Assembly (NCBI GenBank): GCA_020628165.1
Contig: JAHDFM010000022.1
Location: forward strand, 1-56,713
Source: Bdellovibrionales bacterium
GTDB taxonomy: Bacteria; Bdellovibrionota; Bdellovibrionia; Bdellovibrionales; UBA1609
Direction of reading: 5' to 3'
Length of the DNA: 56,713 bases
Position 1 is the first letter of the stretch, and each line of letters opens with the position of its first letter. Positions 12,782 to 22,383 of this stretch are shown here, one piece after another. The notes beneath the pieces were generated by a model, which was given only the letters and a program-made list of their open reading frames with translations, ran no database searches and was not told where the DNA came from. The position numbers were made by a program, and so were the translations under genes.

Positions 12782-13960
12782 TTAGTTAAACATGACTGAA
12801 TTACAATGACTATAATTTATGGAGTTTTGATCTGAACTCCAAATACCATTTGTATAACCAAATATATTTTTGATGGTTTCAATAGCAAGATCTAAGTCTT
12901 CATAACCCTTTCCCTTATAGCTATTGTCTGATAACAAAGGGCGAACTTTAACATCCATATACCAACCTGTTCGGTTGCGCATAAAAAGCGGCAAATAGCG
13001 AACACCATTAATAACTAGGTCGCCATTATCACCTCTTTCGAAGTTAACAAACAATACGACGGACGATTTTTGCTTCACATCATAATGAAAGGTCGTAAAA
13101 TTTCCGAGCGAATAAGCAATTAAAGTTTCACGACCATCTTTTGTGATGTATTTTTCAACAGGTTGTAAAACGTGAGGGTGTGAACCAATAACAAGAGTCG
13201 CCCCTTGATCTAACCATAACTTGGCCCACCTTTTTTGCCTTTGGTTTGGATTTGTTTTACTTTCCTCTCCCCAATGTGGAAGCATCACAACTGCGTCATT
13301 GCTCTGTCGTAACTGAGTTATCATTTGAAGTATAAAGTTCTCATCTTGAGAACAACTTAAAACTTGTTTGTAATTGTCAGGTATGCCATTTGTTGAATGA
13401 GCGCAAGAGAGCCAAGCGATAGAGAACCCATTTTGTTGAGTGATTGTGTACCAAGGAGAATCTTTATCATTTTTTTTTCGAGTTCCCGTGTATTTAAGAC
13501 CGTATTTATCTAAGTTTGCAATTGTTTTATCTACCCCCAGGCTGCCCCTATCTAATGAGTGATTGTTGGCCGTCGAAACAACATCAATACCGCTCTCTAG
13601 TAAACTTTCAATGAGTTGTGGGTGAGTGTTGAAGCGAGGGTAAGTGGTGTAAACATTCTTGTCGTAGACATGACCAGGATCCGTTGTTTCTTTATTATTA
13701 AGTCCAACTCCATCAGCCACAGCTGTCTCTAAATTTGCATAAGAAAGGTCAGACCTTAGAAAATAAGGTATCACCTCTTGCCACAATGATGAAAAATCTT
13801 TGTTGTCAGCGGCCTTTCTTTGCAAAGGGCTGTGCATGATTAAGTCACCCACAAATGAAATCAGTAAATGTTCGCCGTCACCACAATTATTAGAAAAATT
13901 CACTTTGGCAAAACTACTCAAACAGAAAAAAGTAATGAAAATATAAACAACTAATCGCAC
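12782..13960 (-). CDS. CapA family protein (metallophosphatase fold), third of the cluster
   Basis: A 392-residue secreted CapA/PgsA-like protein. Starts at GTG with GGGGAG five bases upstream, and a signal peptide ends near SSFA. Conserved blocks in order: FVGDLIMHS, NLETAVADG, STANNHSLDRG, LPHWGEES, GSHPHVLQPVEKY and YSLGNF. These supply the Asp, Asn/Glu, His and His-x-His positions of the calcineurin-like metal site. CapA proteins are known from poly-gamma-glutamate capsule synthesis, but no capB/capC is present here. It overlaps the preceding CapA gene by 10 bases and is last in the operon. Confidence 0.88.
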   Translation of the reverse strand: MRLVVYIFITFFCLSSFAKVNFSNNCGDGEHLLISFVGDLIMHSPLQRKAADNKDFSSLWQEVIPYFLRSDLSYANLETAVADGVGLNNKETTDPGHVYDKNVYTTYPRFNTHPQLIESLLESGIDVVSTANNHSLDRGSLGVDKTIANLDKYGLKYTGTRKKNDKDSPWYTITQQNGFSIAWLSCAHSTNGIPDNYKQVLSCSQDENFILQMITQLRQSNDAVVMLPHWGEESKTNPNQRQKRWAKLWLDQGATLVIGSHPHVLQPVEKYITKDGRETLIAYSLGNFTTFHYDVKQKSSVVLFVNFERGDNGDLVINGVRYLPLFMRNRTGWYMDVKVRPLLSDNSYKGKGYEDLDLAIETIKNIFGYTNGIWSSDQNSINYSHCNSVMFN

Positions 13961-15168
13961 ACCACTCCCCTAGCTAATTGATCGTCGGTCAAAATGAAGT
14001 CAGAATCTATAAACTGATGTACGTGTCTTTTTGCTTTATCTAAGCTTGAACTTAAAATTTGATCTGAACCATACAACCTTGAATATGCTGGCAGTAATTT
14101 TCTAACATCCTTTTCACCTTCATGTACGATTTTCATATATGTTGGCAGAAATTTGATCTGTGATACTGAAAGGGTTCCTTTGTTCAGATCAAAGCCAAGG
14201 AAAGCACTCATGCCGACACGTCTTTTAAAACGTGATTCATTTTTTTGGGGGTCTCTCCAATTTGAAGGCGCTTGATTCGAAACAAAATTTCCCAAAGAGT
14301 AAATCACTGGGACCTTATAGCCCAAACTAGATTCAATAAACTCGATGGGTTGTACAACGTGAGGATGATGCCCCACTATGGCGTGAGCTCCGTTTAAAAC
14401 CAGTGCTTTCGCAAGCTTTTTTTGATGAGAGCTGACTGAGGGTGAATATTCATTGCCCCAGTGTGGAGTCACGATCACCGCCTCAGAATTTTGATGAGCC
14501 TCTTGGACAAGATCTAACAACAAAGGGTTTGGCTCCCCTTTTTTATAACAAAGTAATACTTGATCATTTTTAATGTTAACGTTGTTGCCATAGGTGCATG
14601 AAATGAAACTTAGTTTATAACTATTTTGAAACACATATTTAATATAGTCTCGAACTGGCGATTCTTCTTTTTTAGTGCCAAATACAGTGACATCTAAATT
14701 ATTGAAAAAATCTAAAGTCAGATCAGCACCTTTTTTCCTGCGGTCTAAACTGTGATTGTTAGCTAGAGAAAATAAAGTAAAACCAGAGTTCACTAACTCT
14801 CGTATTGATTGAGGATGAAAGTTAAAGGTGTAGCTTTTGCCAGCTTCACCAAGAGAGTACATTCCGTTAGTGGGGTGATACGTCTCAGCCATAGATAGAT
14901 CCATCTTACCGTTAGAATATAAGCCAGGAGCCACAGGACCTTCAATATTTGTATACATTAAATCGGCACCGTCTAAATACTTAACCACTTCAGACCACAT
15001 TGGCTGAAACTCTCCACGCTCACTGTTTTTAAAAGCTTGAACATAAAGTGATCCATGAAAGATGGTGTCACCAGTCATTGCTATGACGAGATCATTATCT
15101 AAACATTGAGCAAAAGCATTTGACCAACCTAAGAATATTACAAAAACACAGACTAATATTTTTTGCAT
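13951..15168 (-). CDS. CapA family protein (metallophosphatase fold), second of the cluster
   Basis: A 405-residue secreted protein with the CapA blocks: MTGDTIFHGS, NIEGPVAPG, LANNHSLDRRKKG, TPHWGNEYS, GHHPHVVQPIEF and YSLGNF. The signal peptide ends at SNAFA near residue 21. The frame opens at a TTG (15186), but ATG 15168 is the better start and overlaps the transpeptidase gene by 16 bases. It is clearly paralogous to the next gene (same PHWG and HPHVxQP spacing) and more distant from the first CapA of the operon. Specific substrate unknown; likely periplasmic or surface-acting. Confidence 0.88.
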   Translation of the reverse strand: MQKILVCVFVIFLGWSNAFAQCLDNDLVIAMTGDTIFHGSLYVQAFKNSERGEFQPMWSEVVKYLDGADLMYTNIEGPVAPGLYSNGKMDLSMAETYHPTNGMYSLGEAGKSYTFNFHPQSIRELVNSGFTLFSLANNHSLDRRKKGADLTLDFFNNLDVTVFGTKKEESPVRDYIKYVFQNSYKLSFISCTYGNNVNIKNDQVLLCYKKGEPNPLLLDLVQEAHQNSEAVIVTPHWGNEYSPSVSSHQKKLAKALVLNGAHAIVGHHPHVVQPIEFIESSLGYKVPVIYSLGNFVSNQAPSNWRDPQKNESRFKRRVGMSAFLGFDLNKGTLSVSQIKFLPTYMKIVHEGEKDVRKLLPAYSRLYGSDQILSSSLDKAKRHVHQFIDSDFILTDDQLARGVVCD

Positions 15169-15971
15169 TTCTCTGAGTCCACACAAATTAATTTATGAGC
15201 TGAGTATTCTGATTTTTTTAAATATCTACGATTTTTCTTAACAATTTTTAGTTTTGCATCGGAATAGACAATATTAACTAATGAACCCACATCCACTTGA
15301 TCATAGAGTTCTATGACTTCTTCGTTGTTCATACGAATGCATCCCCCAGATTCATGATAACCCAAGAGGCCTTCCTCTGGTGTGCCATGAATAAGTATGG
15401 ATCTCGCGACCGAATTATTATTAATTGGGCCCTCTAAACCTTTGAGTCTTAAAATTCGAGTCATTACAAACTTTGGATGCCAAAAAGTATCGTCTTGAGT
15501 TGGAATCACACTTTGATTGCGAAAGCCGTATTTAGCACCGTCTATGGCATAATTTAGAGGCCACCCTTCTGCTTCACCTTGTTTTTTCCAAATATAGTGA
15601 ACACCAGGTGGAGTACCTCCGCTGCGTTTAACGTTGCTAACAGCTCCTCGTCCACCTGAAGCACGGTAACTCTTAACGACATGATAATGAACTTTCTTTT
15701 CTTTTTGAGACCAAAAAAACAAATGATTTATATTACAAGTAAAGTCTGCCAATATGGCATTTTCGCCTTGAGGCAATTCAAAATCATTTTTTAATTGCTT
15801 CATGCCATCTTGAACAAACCCTGGTAACTCATCATTTAAATAAGCCTGACAAGCAGAAACACCAATAAGGTTTTCCATATTTATGAGATCAGAAACATCT
15901 GTATTTGAAAAATTTTGTGCATTAGTTACTTCGTAACTAAAAAGTAGTAAAACAATAATGAGAGTTCTCAA
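15153..15971 (-). CDS. L,D-transpeptidase (YkuD domain), periplasmic
   Basis: A 272-residue exported YkuD-type enzyme. The catalytic block IHGTPEEGLLGYHESGGCIRM contains the conserved His, the SGGC nucleophile Cys and the following Arg (the span is split across about residues 195-215). Such enzymes form 3-3 peptidoglycan cross-links or attach proteins to peptidoglycan. The start is assigned to TTG 15971, because AGGAG lies 7 bases before it; an upstream TTG at 15977 would be too close. That places it 2 bases after the first CapA stop. Residues 18-90 form an N-terminal region with two Cys. It sits between CapA genes, which suggests that substrate or product is tied to the cell wall. Confidence 0.87.
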   Translation of the reverse strand: MRTLIIVLLLFSYEVTNAQNFSNTDVSDLINMENLIGVSACQAYLNDELPGFVQDGMKQLKNDFELPQGENAILADFTCNINHLFFWSQKEKKVHYHVVKSYRASGGRGAVSNVKRSGGTPPGVHYIWKKQGEAEGWPLNYAIDGAKYGFRNQSVIPTQDDTFWHPKFVMTRILRLKGLEGPINNNSVARSILIHGTPEEGLLGYHESGGCIRMNNEEVIELYDQVDVGSLVNIVYSDAKLKIVKKNRRYLKKSEYSAHKLICVDSEKCKKY

Positions 15972-15973
15972 GT

Positions 15974-17005
15974 TCAATCTCCTATGTAAAACTGGCCGTT
16001 GTTATCAATAATTAGTTTTGAATTAAAATCTTCTTTTGAAAGTTTTTGTAAAATAGCGATGGCTTCTTTGTTGCGATCGACTTCTAAAAAAATAGGATTT
16101 TTACCCTGCTTGGTTGGAATGATTTCACCAGACACAAGATCACCAGAACGCTCATCTAATTTTACTTGCAAGATATAACCAATATTCAATGGGTTTGAGA
16201 GCTTGAAGCCCCATGGCGTTGCAAAGTTACTTAAAGAATATGCAATGAGTTTATTTTTATAAACTTCCATGCCTCTAGGAACATGGGGACCATGGCCAAG
16301 AATCAGATCAGCTCCAGCATCAATGGCAACTCTCACAAATTTTCTTAAGTCACCCCTGTTCTCCGAGCCACGCATTTCAACGCCCTGTGGAGTTGACAAG
16401 GCATTTTGCCCTTCACTGCCGCCATGGAATGACACAACAATTATATCTGCTTGAGTACTCACTTCTTTGATCAAAGCTGTTATGCGTTTGTATTCTTTGA
16501 TAGATATAAGTCGTCCCCAGCCATTAGAATAATGAAAGGCTACAAAACCCACTTTTTTGCCACGAACATTTAAAACACGAGTACTAGCTATGTCTTTTTT
16601 TGAACCAGATGGGATTAAACCAATGGCTTTGATCCCGTTTGTTTCTAAAAATTGAACTGTTTGATTGGCACAGATTTCACCGTAATCATAAATATGATTG
16701 TTTGCCACACTGGCGACCTGGATTCCAGCATTCTTTAAATGGTCGACAATTATAGGGTCAGAGCGAAAAGCAAAACAGGATTTACCTTCTTTGCACTTCC
16801 AACTGATCTCTTTAGTGTTACAAATGGTGCCTTCGTAATTTACAAATGACAGATCTGTTGATTTAAAATGTGTAGAGACTGCACTTAAGTAATTACTAGG
16901 CAAATAACTGCCACCAGACTGTAACATTGTGTCTCCAGCAGCACTTATGGTCAGTGCTGCTAGATCATATGTTATTAATAATATAAATACTAAAACTGAT
17001 TTCAT
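15974..17005 (-). CDS. CapA family protein (metallophosphatase fold), first of the cluster
   Basis: A 343-residue exported CapA-like protein: AGDTMLQSG, NYEGTIC, SVANNHIYDYG, VSFHGGSEG, GHGPHVPRGMEVY and YSLSNF. It differs from the two later copies by FHGG in place of PHWG and GHGPHVPRG in place of HPHVxQP, so it belongs to another subgroup. The signal peptide ends near ALT/I. No Shine-Dalgarno is visible: the ATG is abutted by a perfect palindrome (17005-17023). It is the first gene of the four-gene CapA/transpeptidase operon. Confidence 0.87.
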   Translation of the reverse strand: MKSVLVFILLITYDLAALTISAAGDTMLQSGGSYLPSNYLSAVSTHFKSTDLSFVNYEGTICNTKEISWKCKEGKSCFAFRSDPIIVDHLKNAGIQVASVANNHIYDYGEICANQTVQFLETNGIKAIGLIPSGSKKDIASTRVLNVRGKKVGFVAFHYSNGWGRLISIKEYKRITALIKEVSTQADIIVVSFHGGSEGQNALSTPQGVEMRGSENRGDLRKFVRVAIDAGADLILGHGPHVPRGMEVYKNKLIAYSLSNFATPWGFKLSNPLNIGYILQVKLDERSGDLVSGEIIPTKQGKNPIFLEVDRNKEAIAILQKLSKEDFNSKLIIDNNGQFYIGD

Positions 17006-17023
17006 AGATTGTTTAACAATCTA
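17005..17023. promoter_or_regulatory. Perfect palindrome touching the CapA start codon
   Basis: TAGATTGTT-T-AACAATCTA: 9-base arms around one base, running into the A of the ATG on the minus strand. In RNA it can fold into a 7-bp stem with a 5-base loop where a Shine-Dalgarno should be. It may be an operator for a dimeric regulator or a translational hairpin. Function is inferred, not shown. Confidence 0.5.
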
Positions 17024-17167: not shown

Positions 17168-17593
17168 TTATTTTTCTTGGCTGATACAGGAGTATTCCAT
17201 TGTGTACCCATTCAGTTCTTTTTTACATGCGAGATCTTTAATTAAACATGTGTCAAAATCGTCTTCGTGGACTTTACAAGCCTCAAAGCCCTTTGATGTT
17301 AAAAATTTTAGTAAGCTAATCATCGTTCCAGAAGAGTTTGGAGCTAACTCGTGAACACGACTTTCAGCATTTCCAGCTTTATTAAACTCGCTAATCACAC
17401 AATGACCTGCTTCTTCTGTACCATTACACGTTACTAATTCTATATCTAACGAGCATTTCCCCATTGAGCACTCTTCAAAATGTGCAATATCATTTAGGTA
17501 AGAGTAAAGAACCCGCGAACCATTTGGGCCAAAATCAATTGCAAAAGTTACAGGTGAAAATGTTAGTAGTAGAATTAATAATGTTTGTTTCAT
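17168..17593 (-). CDS. Small cysteine-rich secreted protein
   Basis: A 141-residue protein with a signal peptide ending TFA-I near residue 19. The mature part contains eight Cys, an even number that suits four disulfides in the periplasm or outside: C-x4-C-x8-C-x8-C in the first half and C-x9-C-x6-C-x12-C in the second. The two halves may be a repeated Cys module. No known domain recognised. A good Shine-Dalgarno (AGGAGAT) precedes the ATG. It lies between the CapA operon and the tRNA-Val gene, all on the minus strand. Confidence 0.7.
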   Translation of the reverse strand: MKQTLLILLLTFSPVTFAIDFGPNGSRVLYSYLNDIAHFEECSMGKCSLDIELVTCNGTEEAGHCVISEFNKAGNAESRVHELAPNSSGTMISLLKFLTSKGFEACKVHEDDFDTCLIKDLACKKELNGYTMEYSCISQEK

Positions 17594-18645: not shown

Positions 18646-19749
18646 CTAAGATAATAATACTCTCACTTCTTTATTAAAATAGTAACCATTTTTTGCTCTA
18701 AACAAGTATTTAGGCTTTTCATTTTCTGGCTCGATCAGTTTTCTAAGACGCTTGATCGTGACGTAGAGCTTGTTGTCATGCACTCTTGGGTCATATTCTT
18801 GCTGCCAAATTTTATTAACAATCTCTTCTTTTGAATAAACTTGACCCGGACTGGTCATAAATAGCTTTAATAAGTCTAGAAGGATAAATTGATTTTTAAA
18901 ATCAATACTTCCTTTGTTCTTTTCAGTTACAAACTTTTTAGTTTTATCAAAGATTAAGTCGTATTGACCCACTTTACTGCCAGTGACCTCTTTGAGACTG
19001 TTCTCAATGGCCATAAACAGCATGTTTAAATTGTCTTTAGAAACACTGTTATATGCAAGGTTTAAATAAATTCTGGCTAAGTGGTGATCACCTTTATCTT
19101 TGTAAAACAAACCAATCATATATAGTATGGTGACATACAAATACATATCCTTGGCCTCTTTCACATCACTGTAAGCCTGCCATAAAATATCTAAGCCTTC
19201 ATCAAACCTATTTAATTTTCTAAGAATATTACTATTTAAAATTTTGATGTAAGTGTCTAATTCTGGAAAACTTTCAACCTGAGAAAATACTTTGATATTA
19301 TATATTTCTTTTAATGCCTCATCGTATTGACCTGCTCGGGCCGAAACGTTAGCTATTCCAAAAATTGCATAACAAATGTCTTTTTTTGAATTCTTCTTTA
19401 ACGCTAGGTTTAGCGATTTTGTGAAGTACTCTTTAGCTATACTATATTGTCTTTTTAAATCGGCGCACAAACCAAGTGTATAGAATGTCTTCGGTGATAG
19501 TTCAAAATTGTCTTTTAAGACGAGATCTTGCAAAAATTCTTTAAGTCTTTCTACTTCTTCTTGATTACCTAACTCGGCGTAAATTCGAATTAGTATATTT
19601 TGTGCATCCAAAAAGCTGTCAAACTTGCTCTCGTGCAAAAACAGCTCACTGGCCTGTTTTAAATAGGGTATAGCTTCTCTGTATTCTGTACGGTCCTTAT
19701 ATAAGCGACCTACTTTAAGTAGCTCTTCAGCTTTTAACCCCTGAATCAT
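18646..19749 (-). CDS. TPR protein with C-terminal winged-helix DNA-binding domain
   Basis: A 367-residue cytoplasmic protein. Residues 1-250 are tandem TPR-like helix pairs (AIPYLKQASELF, SIAKEYFTKSLNLALKK, HLARIYLNLAYNSV). Residues 285-362 form an OmpR/PhoB-type winged helix: LLDLLKLFMTSPGQVYSKEEI, NKLYVTIKRLRKLIEP (recognition helix) and YLFRAKNGYYF (wing). This is the reverse of the order in SARP/BTAD or MalT-like regulators and there is no receiver domain, so activity is probably tuned by protein or ligand binding to the TPR superhelix. Likely transcriptional regulator; targets unknown. Confidence 0.8.
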   Translation of the reverse strand: MIQGLKAEELLKVGRLYKDRTEYREAIPYLKQASELFLHESKFDSFLDAQNILIRIYAELGNQEEVERLKEFLQDLVLKDNFELSPKTFYTLGLCADLKRQYSIAKEYFTKSLNLALKKNSKKDICYAIFGIANVSARAGQYDEALKEIYNIKVFSQVESFPELDTYIKILNSNILRKLNRFDEGLDILWQAYSDVKEAKDMYLYVTILYMIGLFYKDKGDHHLARIYLNLAYNSVSKDNLNMLFMAIENSLKEVTGSKVGQYDLIFDKTKKFVTEKNKGSIDFKNQFILLDLLKLFMTSPGQVYSKEEIVNKIWQQEYDPRVHDNKLYVTIKRLRKLIEPENEKPKYLFRAKNGYYFNKEVRVLLS

Positions 19750-19944: not shown

Positions 19945-22383
19945 TTAATGCTGAACCGATTGCTGGCCAGTGTATTGAGCTCTAATTCCAGTGGCTCTTT
20001 CTGTTCTAATTTTGAAAAGCTCTTTTGCATTTTTAATATCTAAAGCGTTCACTAAAACTTGATCGACGTGATCTACGAGAATCACTTTGATATCTTTAAG
20101 AACTTCTTCCGGAATATCTTTTAAGTCTTTTTCATTCTCTTTTGGAACGATCACAGTTTTAACGCCCGCTCTGTGAGCAGCTAGAGTTTTTTCTCTTAAA
20201 CCACCAATCGCTAAAACACGACCTCTCAAGGTCACTTCACCTGTCATAGCCACTGTGCGCTTAACTGGGATTTTAGTGATTGCAGATACGATACTTGTTG
20301 TTAATGCAATCCCTGCAGATGGACCATCTTTTGGAATGGCACCCTCTGGAAAGTGAATGTGCACATCTATGTTTGCATAATACTCTTTATCATAACCAAA
20401 AAGTGGGCCGCGCGATCTGACGTAACTCATCGCTGCCGAACAGGACTCTTTCATTACTTCGCCAAGTTGACCAGTCACTGTAAACTTACCCTTACCAGGC
20501 ACAACAGAAACTTCCACAGCAAGAATATCTCCGCCCACTTCTGTCCAAGCTAAACCGTTGGTTAAACCAATTTCGTTAGAGCCTTCGATCTTACCGTGCT
20601 TATGCTGTTTTTGCCCTAAGTACTCAACAACTTTTTTAGCATTCAAGTTGATCGCTTTTCTTGATTTGGTCGATTTTGATTTAGTTTTTTTATTGGCAAC
20701 TAGCTCTTCTTTAACAATGTCCTTGGCAACTTTTCTACAAACAGTTGCAATTTTGCGCTCAAGGTTTCTCACCCCAGCTTCACGCGTGTAAGAACGAATG
20801 ATTTCAAAAACCGCAGCATCATTGAAAGACACTTTGTAATCAACAAGGCCATGTTTTTTAATTTGTTTTGGAATGAGGTACTTTTTTGAAATATGAAATT
20901 TTTCTTTTTCCAAGTAACCATCCAAGCTGATCACTTCCATTCTATCGAGAAGTGGGCGAGGGATTGGGTGCAAAGAGTTGGCCGTTGTTAAGAACATCAC
21001 TTTAGATAAGTCGTATTCAACTTCAATGTAGTGATCTGCAAACGTAGAGTTTTGTTCTGGGTCTAAAACTTCAAGTAAGGCCGCAGAAGGGTCTCCTTTA
21101 AAGTCCATACTCATTTTATCAATCTCATCGAGTAATAATAACGGGTTGCCTTTTTCACACTTTCTTAAAGCTTGCATGATCTTACCAGGCATAGCTCCAA
21201 CATAAGTTTTTCTATGACCGCGTATTTCAGCTTCGTCGCGCACACCGCCTAAAGAGATTCTGGCAAAAGATCTATTCAACGCTTTTGCAACGGATCTTGC
21301 TAGTGATGTTTTACCAACGCCTGGAGGGCCAACTAAACACAAGATCGGACCGTTCAATTCATTAGTTAAAATTTGCACCGACAAGTGCTCTAAAATTCTG
21401 TCTTTAACTTTTTCTAAACCCCAGTGATCATCATCGAGGATTTCCTGAGCCGCATCGAGGTCACATTTTTCTTGGCTGTAATCACCCCATGGTAAATCTA
21501 GCATCCAATCGATGTAGTTTCTCACCACAGCCGCTTCTGCACTCATTGGTGACATCATCTTGAGTTTTTTAATTTCTTTTTCTACTTTTTTGCGACCGGC
21601 TTCAGTGATCTTCTTTTTTGCTAAGCGCTCACTGAGCTCTTCAAGCTCAGCTTGATAATCATCCTTGTCGCCCAACTCTTTTTGTATCGCCTGCATTTGC
21701 TCATTCAAATAGTATTCTTTTTGTGAACGCTCCATTTGCTTTTTAACACGACCACGGATCTTCTTTTCCACTTCAAGAATTTCAATCTCACCGGTCATTA
21801 ACTGGAACAGCTCTTCTAAGCGCTTAGCAGGATCAGTCAGCTCAAGTAACTTTTGCTTGTCCTCTAATTTTAAATTGAGCTGAGCTGCAATGATATCTGC
21901 AAGCTCTGAAAAGTCTTCGATCGTTGAAACGCGCATTAGCGTTTCTGGTGGAATTCTTTTGTTTAATTTAACATAAACTTCAAAAGTATTTTTTACAGAT
22001 CTTAGCAAAGCTTTCGCTTCTGTTTCGTCTTCAATGACCTCTTCGATTTCTGTAACATCAGCACTAAAGAAGTTATCTGATTGCGCTAAATTTTCAATGC
22101 GAACTCTTTTTTTACCTTCTACTAGAACTTTAACTGTTCCATCAGGAAGTCTTAACAATTGAATGATGGTTCCAATAGTTCCAACACTAAATATATCATC
22201 CACCGTTGGGTTATTGGTTTTAGCGTCTCTTTGTGCAGCTAAAACAATGTCCGTTTGCTTATTCATAGCGTCTTCTAAAGCATTGATACTTTTTTCACGC
22301 CCAACAAACAACGGCATCATCATGTGAGGAAAAATGATCAGATCTCTGAGTGGCAAAAGGGGTAAGGTGGATTTCTTAGACAT
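19945..22383 (-). CDS. lon: ATP-dependent protease La (Lon)
   Basis: An 812-residue LonA. The N domain ([22 protein letters not shown]) is followed by a coiled-coil helical part, the AAA+ module (Walker [14 protein letters not shown], Walker [11 protein letters not shown], sensor region [18 protein letters not shown]) and a proteolytic domain with catalytic Ser in [11 protein letters not shown] and Lys in [14 protein letters not shown]. It degrades misfolded and short-lived regulatory proteins. A Lys/Ser/Thr-rich insert ([12 protein letters not shown]) between the ATPase and protease domains makes it slightly longer than E. coli Lon. Ribosome site AGGAGG precedes ATG. Next to clpX-clpP, as in many bacteria. 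Confidence 0.97.

Follow-up and report, generated by a model that had tools for sequence, protein, structure and literature searches.

CapA proteins are, to our knowledge, annotated everywhere as capsule proteins, although their reaction is unsettled. The window, which is the whole stretch of 56,713 nucleotides analysed here, contains a locus that raises the question of what such proteins do in other company. Its three CapA genes and one gene for a peptidoglycan enzyme, without CapB or CapC, offer a clean setting for looking at what CapA does outside capsule synthesis.

A four-gene locus and its recurrence

The genes are transcribed on the minus strand from 17005 to 12782 in the order CapA1, L,D-transpeptidase (LDT), CapA2 and CapA3.

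17005-15974, minus strand: CapA1, first gene; 343 aa, ATG start; PF09587 at 160.7 bits
15971-15153, minus strand: YkuD L,D-transpeptidase (LDT), second gene; 272 aa, TTG start; PF03734 at 54.7 bits
15168-13951, minus strand: CapA2, third gene; 405 aa; PF09587 at 177 bits
13960-12782, minus strand: CapA3, fourth gene; 392 aa, GTG start; PF09587 at 219 bits

The earlier note had described a packed CapA-YkuD-CapA-CapA unit with export signals on all four products, and this description stands. The genes are separated by a 2-base gap and then overlap by 16 and 10 bases, and all of the family scores lie well over the curated cut-offs (27 bits for PF09587, PGA_cap, and 23.4 bits for PF03734). Each of the four proteins has a hydrophobic, export-like N-terminus with no strong membrane segment after it by a simple hydropathy measure, so all four are probably exported. 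The outer limit of 17023 has to be corrected, since this position is the first base of a TAG stop (17023-17021) in frame upstream of CapA1, which begins at the ATG at 17005, the only usual start available to it. A TTG at 15977 is a possible alternative start for LDT. A scan for promoters and terminators returned no more matches than shuffled sequences.

The genome of the window (3.19 Mb, 99% complete) encodes three PF09587 proteins, all within the operon, and three YkuD proteins, one of them in the operon. Thus, all of its CapA genes and a third of its YkuD genes are packed into 4.2 kb and, because the same gene order recurs in two more species, this clustering goes beyond chance. The recurrence, on which the earlier note had made its reading depend, is found in a congener (G003) and in a member of another family of the same taxonomic order (G125; contig CAUJGS010000079.1, Bdellovibrionota KLAP46). 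In G125 the complete order lies on a single contig (L049), with two overlaps of 4 bases each and a 23-base gap. In G003 the operon falls on two contigs, C135 and C100 (loci L025 and L026), whose ends share 1123 bp at 96% identity, and joining them gives CapA1-LDT-CapA2-CapA3. The simplest reading is a single locus that a strain-mixed assembly has broken; two diverged copies are also possible. Identities to the window proteins for CapA1, LDT, CapA2 and CapA3 are 59, 60, 51 and 59% in G003 and 42, 38, 37 and 43% in G125, respectively.

The flanks of the operon differ between the carrier genomes. A further congener (G002, 99% complete) has the regulator that adjoins the operon but neither the operon itself nor any CapA gene in its genome. 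The conserved unit is therefore the four genes only. Regarding the surroundings, a TPR protein with a C-terminal OmpR-type DNA-binding domain (18646-19749) occurs in each of the four genomes searched within the genus, and a Lon-type protease gene, named by eye (19945-22383 in the window), lies near the gene for this TPR protein in both the window and G003.

A profile of the operon LDT matches three of the 369 genomes of the phylum, namely those of the window, G003 and G125, and some CapA is present in 101 of the 369. Judged by this distribution, the operon is old, accessory and patchy. Its GC content is near that of the surroundings in the window's genome and in G125, so base composition gives no support to a recent horizontal gain. 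Outside the phylum, relatives of the LDT (77 open frames scored) have no CapA gene in the flanking DNA covered, which extends up to 7 kb on each side; the scan of genome contigs required short exact motifs and kept the best 80 matches, so that distant copies may be missed. Searching plasmids with the LDT returned weak, half-length L,D-transpeptidases only. Other pairings of CapA genes proved not to be the operon. In G149 and G156, CapA pairs about 4 kb apart enclose unrelated genes and lack a YkuD, and in G042 a CapA1-type and a CapA3-type gene lie 5 kb apart on opposite strands with no LDT between. The open-access papers searched yielded no description of the operon, and nothing relevant that linked CapA to YkuD or Bdellovibrio to poly-γ-glutamate, or that treated PgsA as an epimerase. 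The operon, made of known families, is real and conserved and is apparently undescribed.

The CapA tree places CapA1, CapA2 and CapA3 in three separate groups, each of which joins the copies from the window's genome, G003 and G125. The CapA2 clade is well supported (99/98) and, within the tree set, consists exclusively of operon copies with no lone relative. The CapA1 and CapA3 clades are weaker inside and are shared with lone relatives, which belong to family f8 (which we take to be Bdellovibrionaceae) for CapA1 and to f8 or the window's own family for CapA3. The operon genes are orthologous position by position, each CapA falling in its own clade. Two CapA-like proteins of about 480 residues in G001 (L028, 627-2057; L029, 5507-6958) match PF09587 in two parts and form a distinct family branch. 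A 747-residue CapA of G003 (C105, L027, 524-2767), which starts like a lipoprotein and has additional residues N-terminal to its CapA domain, sits on a long branch.

Folds and active sites of the three CapA proteins

CapA1 is the one CapA that was modelled, and its AlphaFold2 prediction has a pLDDT of 92.6. The nearest solved fold is that of MslH, the calcium-dependent epimerase of the C-terminal Trp of a lasso peptide (PDB 8gq9; PMC10406935), with a Z-score of 36 and 2.4 Å over 302 residues, covering residues 15-343 of CapA1 at 22% identity; the Foldseek E-value is 3.5e-20. MslH uses two His/Asp dyads, His88/Asp91 and His295/Asp11, and binds one calcium ion via Glu44, Asn87, His259 and His261 (PMC10406935). 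By alignment, D11, E44, N87, H88, D91, H259 and H295 of MslH correspond to D25, E58, N103, H104, D107, H194 and H241 in CapA1. The residues in the matching columns are D34, E76, N138, H139, D142, H236 and H270 in CapA2 and D39, E78, N133, H134, D137, H229 and H263 in CapA3. Thus, both catalytic dyads and three of the calcium ligands are kept in all three CapA proteins, along with the likeness of CapA1 to MslH over nearly its whole length. The fourth ligand, His261, is Gly in all 22 aligned CapA proteins (G196 in CapA1), so the match to the metal site of MslH is incomplete. The invariant residues among the 22 proteins, in CapA1 numbering, are G24, D25, N56, E58, N102, N103, H104, H194, G196, E198, H241 and N260.

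The three proteins differ around this site. CapA1 carries the MslH-like signature GHGPHxxRG; CapA2 (GHHPHVVQP) and CapA3 (GSHPHVLQP) both keep an HxH pair and are closer to two-metal enzymes. From these residues, the three CapA proteins appear to be different, intact enzymes. Their differences from MslH also include the export-like N-termini, the lack of recognised lasso-peptide genes and scores far under the cut-off of the MslH equivalog (NF038314; 75.9 bits for CapA1 and 41.7 and 40.4 bits for the other two, against 700). A shared fold by itself does not establish a shared reaction.

In the fold search with CapA1, YmdB (Z 18), 5′-nucleotidases (about 17) and Mre11 rank after MslH. This ranking, the calcineurin-like fold and the HxH pair of CapA2 and CapA3 would also suit ordinary calcineurin-like phosphoesterases, that is, nucleotidases or phosphodiesterases whose task is to scavenge phosphate or to cleave wall polymers joined by phosphate, with LDT as a general envelope partner. 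We consider this explanation unlikely: CapA1 matches MslH far above the phosphatases (Z 36 versus 18), and where YmdB has its second-metal Asn40, the three CapA proteins carry Gly or Thr. A gene for a purple acid phosphatase-like protein (PF16656 and PF00149; 9087-10349, plus strand) lies 2.4 kb from the operon; however, it is on the opposite strand and outside the conserved unit.

MslH acts on a lasso-peptide precursor, whose C-terminus it epimerises (PMC10406935), and the likeness of the CapA proteins to MslH suggests another explanation, namely that a secreted ribosomal peptide is matured by the operon: the CapA proteins would epimerise this peptide, and LDT would attach it either to a D-residue or to the wall. 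A candidate peptide gene can even be pointed to, since a 141-residue protein with an export-like start is encoded on the same strand just upstream of the operon (17168-17593). In neither G003 nor G125 was this neighbour seen next to the operon, however, and nothing there could be recognised as a precursor, lasso cyclase or protease, which makes the explanation highly improbable.

The L,D-transpeptidase and the cell wall

The assignment of LDT to the YkuD family by its PF03734 score is matched by an HGT...SxGCxR active site, and H195, S208, C211 and R213 are invariant in an alignment of 34 relatives. The structural model is of moderate quality (pLDDT 83) and YkuD-like, with a Z-score of 13.8 and 2.2 Å over 116 residues. 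Judged by these features, LDT is apparently an intact enzyme. It shares the family domain, the catalytic His, Ser, Cys and Arg and the fold with Bacillus subtilis YkuD and LdtMt2, but it differs from them in a Cys-bearing N-terminal part of its own, a C-terminal tail within the genus, the linkage to CapA and a change in the SHGC motif. The His of this motif (window 15336-15350) is Gly in the window and G003 (SGGC) and Ala in G125 (SAGC), and most relatives keep His. The best NCBIfam match of LDT is the ElsL-type L,D-carboxypeptidase (NF040925; 70.4 bits over residues 99-236, under the cut-off of 270), compared with which LDT adds the export-like N-terminus and extra segments.

Since the catalytic residues of LDT are kept, the cell wall is the most economical reading of the site of action. 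The earlier note had proposed a system that modifies the cell wall or the wall of prey; the first part is plausible on these grounds, and specificity for prey finds no support. The window's genome has three YkuD genes versus 12-14 in three of the four f8 genomes searched, and the operon LDT is absent from the sampled f8 genomes.

Capsule synthase and proposed wall-peptide editing

PF09587 is named for capsule synthesis, and all three operon proteins have this domain in common with PgsA/CapA of the PgsBCA/CapBCA systems. Where these systems have a synthase, the operon has an LDT along with three divergent CapA proteins. Its CapA proteins might nevertheless make, trim or attach a poly-γ-glutamate-like amide polymer, as the earlier note had supposed, with LDT anchoring the polymer to peptidoglycan. 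CapD of Bacillus anthracis anchors an amide polymer to peptidoglycan. This supposition loses ground, and we regard it as distinctly unlikely. In the two genomes with the operon complete on one contig, those of the window and G125, there is no match to CapC (PF14102) or PgsB (TIGR04012) at E-values up to 0.1, so in these two genomes no capBC locus elsewhere explains the CapA copies. G003 does encode CapB/CapC-like proteins, which would favour a polymer, but their genes are on contigs other than those of the operon. Thus, two of the three carriers have no detectable polymer synthase, and CapA1 finds its nearest solved relative in a peptide epimerase. Because the gene order recurs in two other species with no capsule synthase beside it, wall-peptide editing rather than capsule building is probably the role of the operon.

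We therefore favour, though tentatively, a self-contained accessory operon whose exported enzymes would edit D,L-peptides, most likely the stem peptides of peptidoglycan. L,D-transpeptidases act at the diaminopimelate of stem peptides, in which a γ-D-Glu link lies beside this residue. CapA relatives are tied to D- or γ-linked peptides, through the substrate of MslH and through association with poly-γ-glutamate. These points together suggest a stem-peptide substrate, presumably shared by the four enzymes, and the CapA proteins would be tied to peptidoglycan by their operon partnership with LDT. After export of all four to the periplasm or beyond, the three CapA proteins may act as metal-dependent enzymes on peptide ends or on γ-glutamyl peptides. 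Among them, CapA1 with its GHGPH site would be the likeliest to carry out acid/base chemistry at a terminal Cα, that is, epimerisation; CapA2 and CapA3, with the HxH pair, may hydrolyse instead. LDT would then cut, exchange or form a bond at diaminopimelate, adjoining the γ-D-glutamyl link that is common to stem peptides and poly-γ-glutamate. Three different CapA proteins could imply three different substrates or steps. A more specific version, which we hold to be very unlikely, is that the MslH-type CapA proteins epimerise the terminal residue of the stem peptide and the dedicated LDT fixes or removes the product, so that other enzymes could not cut the wall.

The editing of stem peptides would tie the widespread and poorly understood CapA family to the mechanism of the MslH epimerase and to the wall. 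The locus also suggests that annotating a capsule from CapA alone is unsafe. The CapB/CapC-like proteins of G003 are unusual in themselves. One has 1057 residues and two CapC domains (C129, L132, 1734-4907), and another has 1419 residues with a PgsB-like stretch (C222, L133, 1830-6089); together they are possibly an unusual fused synthase of the poly-γ-glutamate type.
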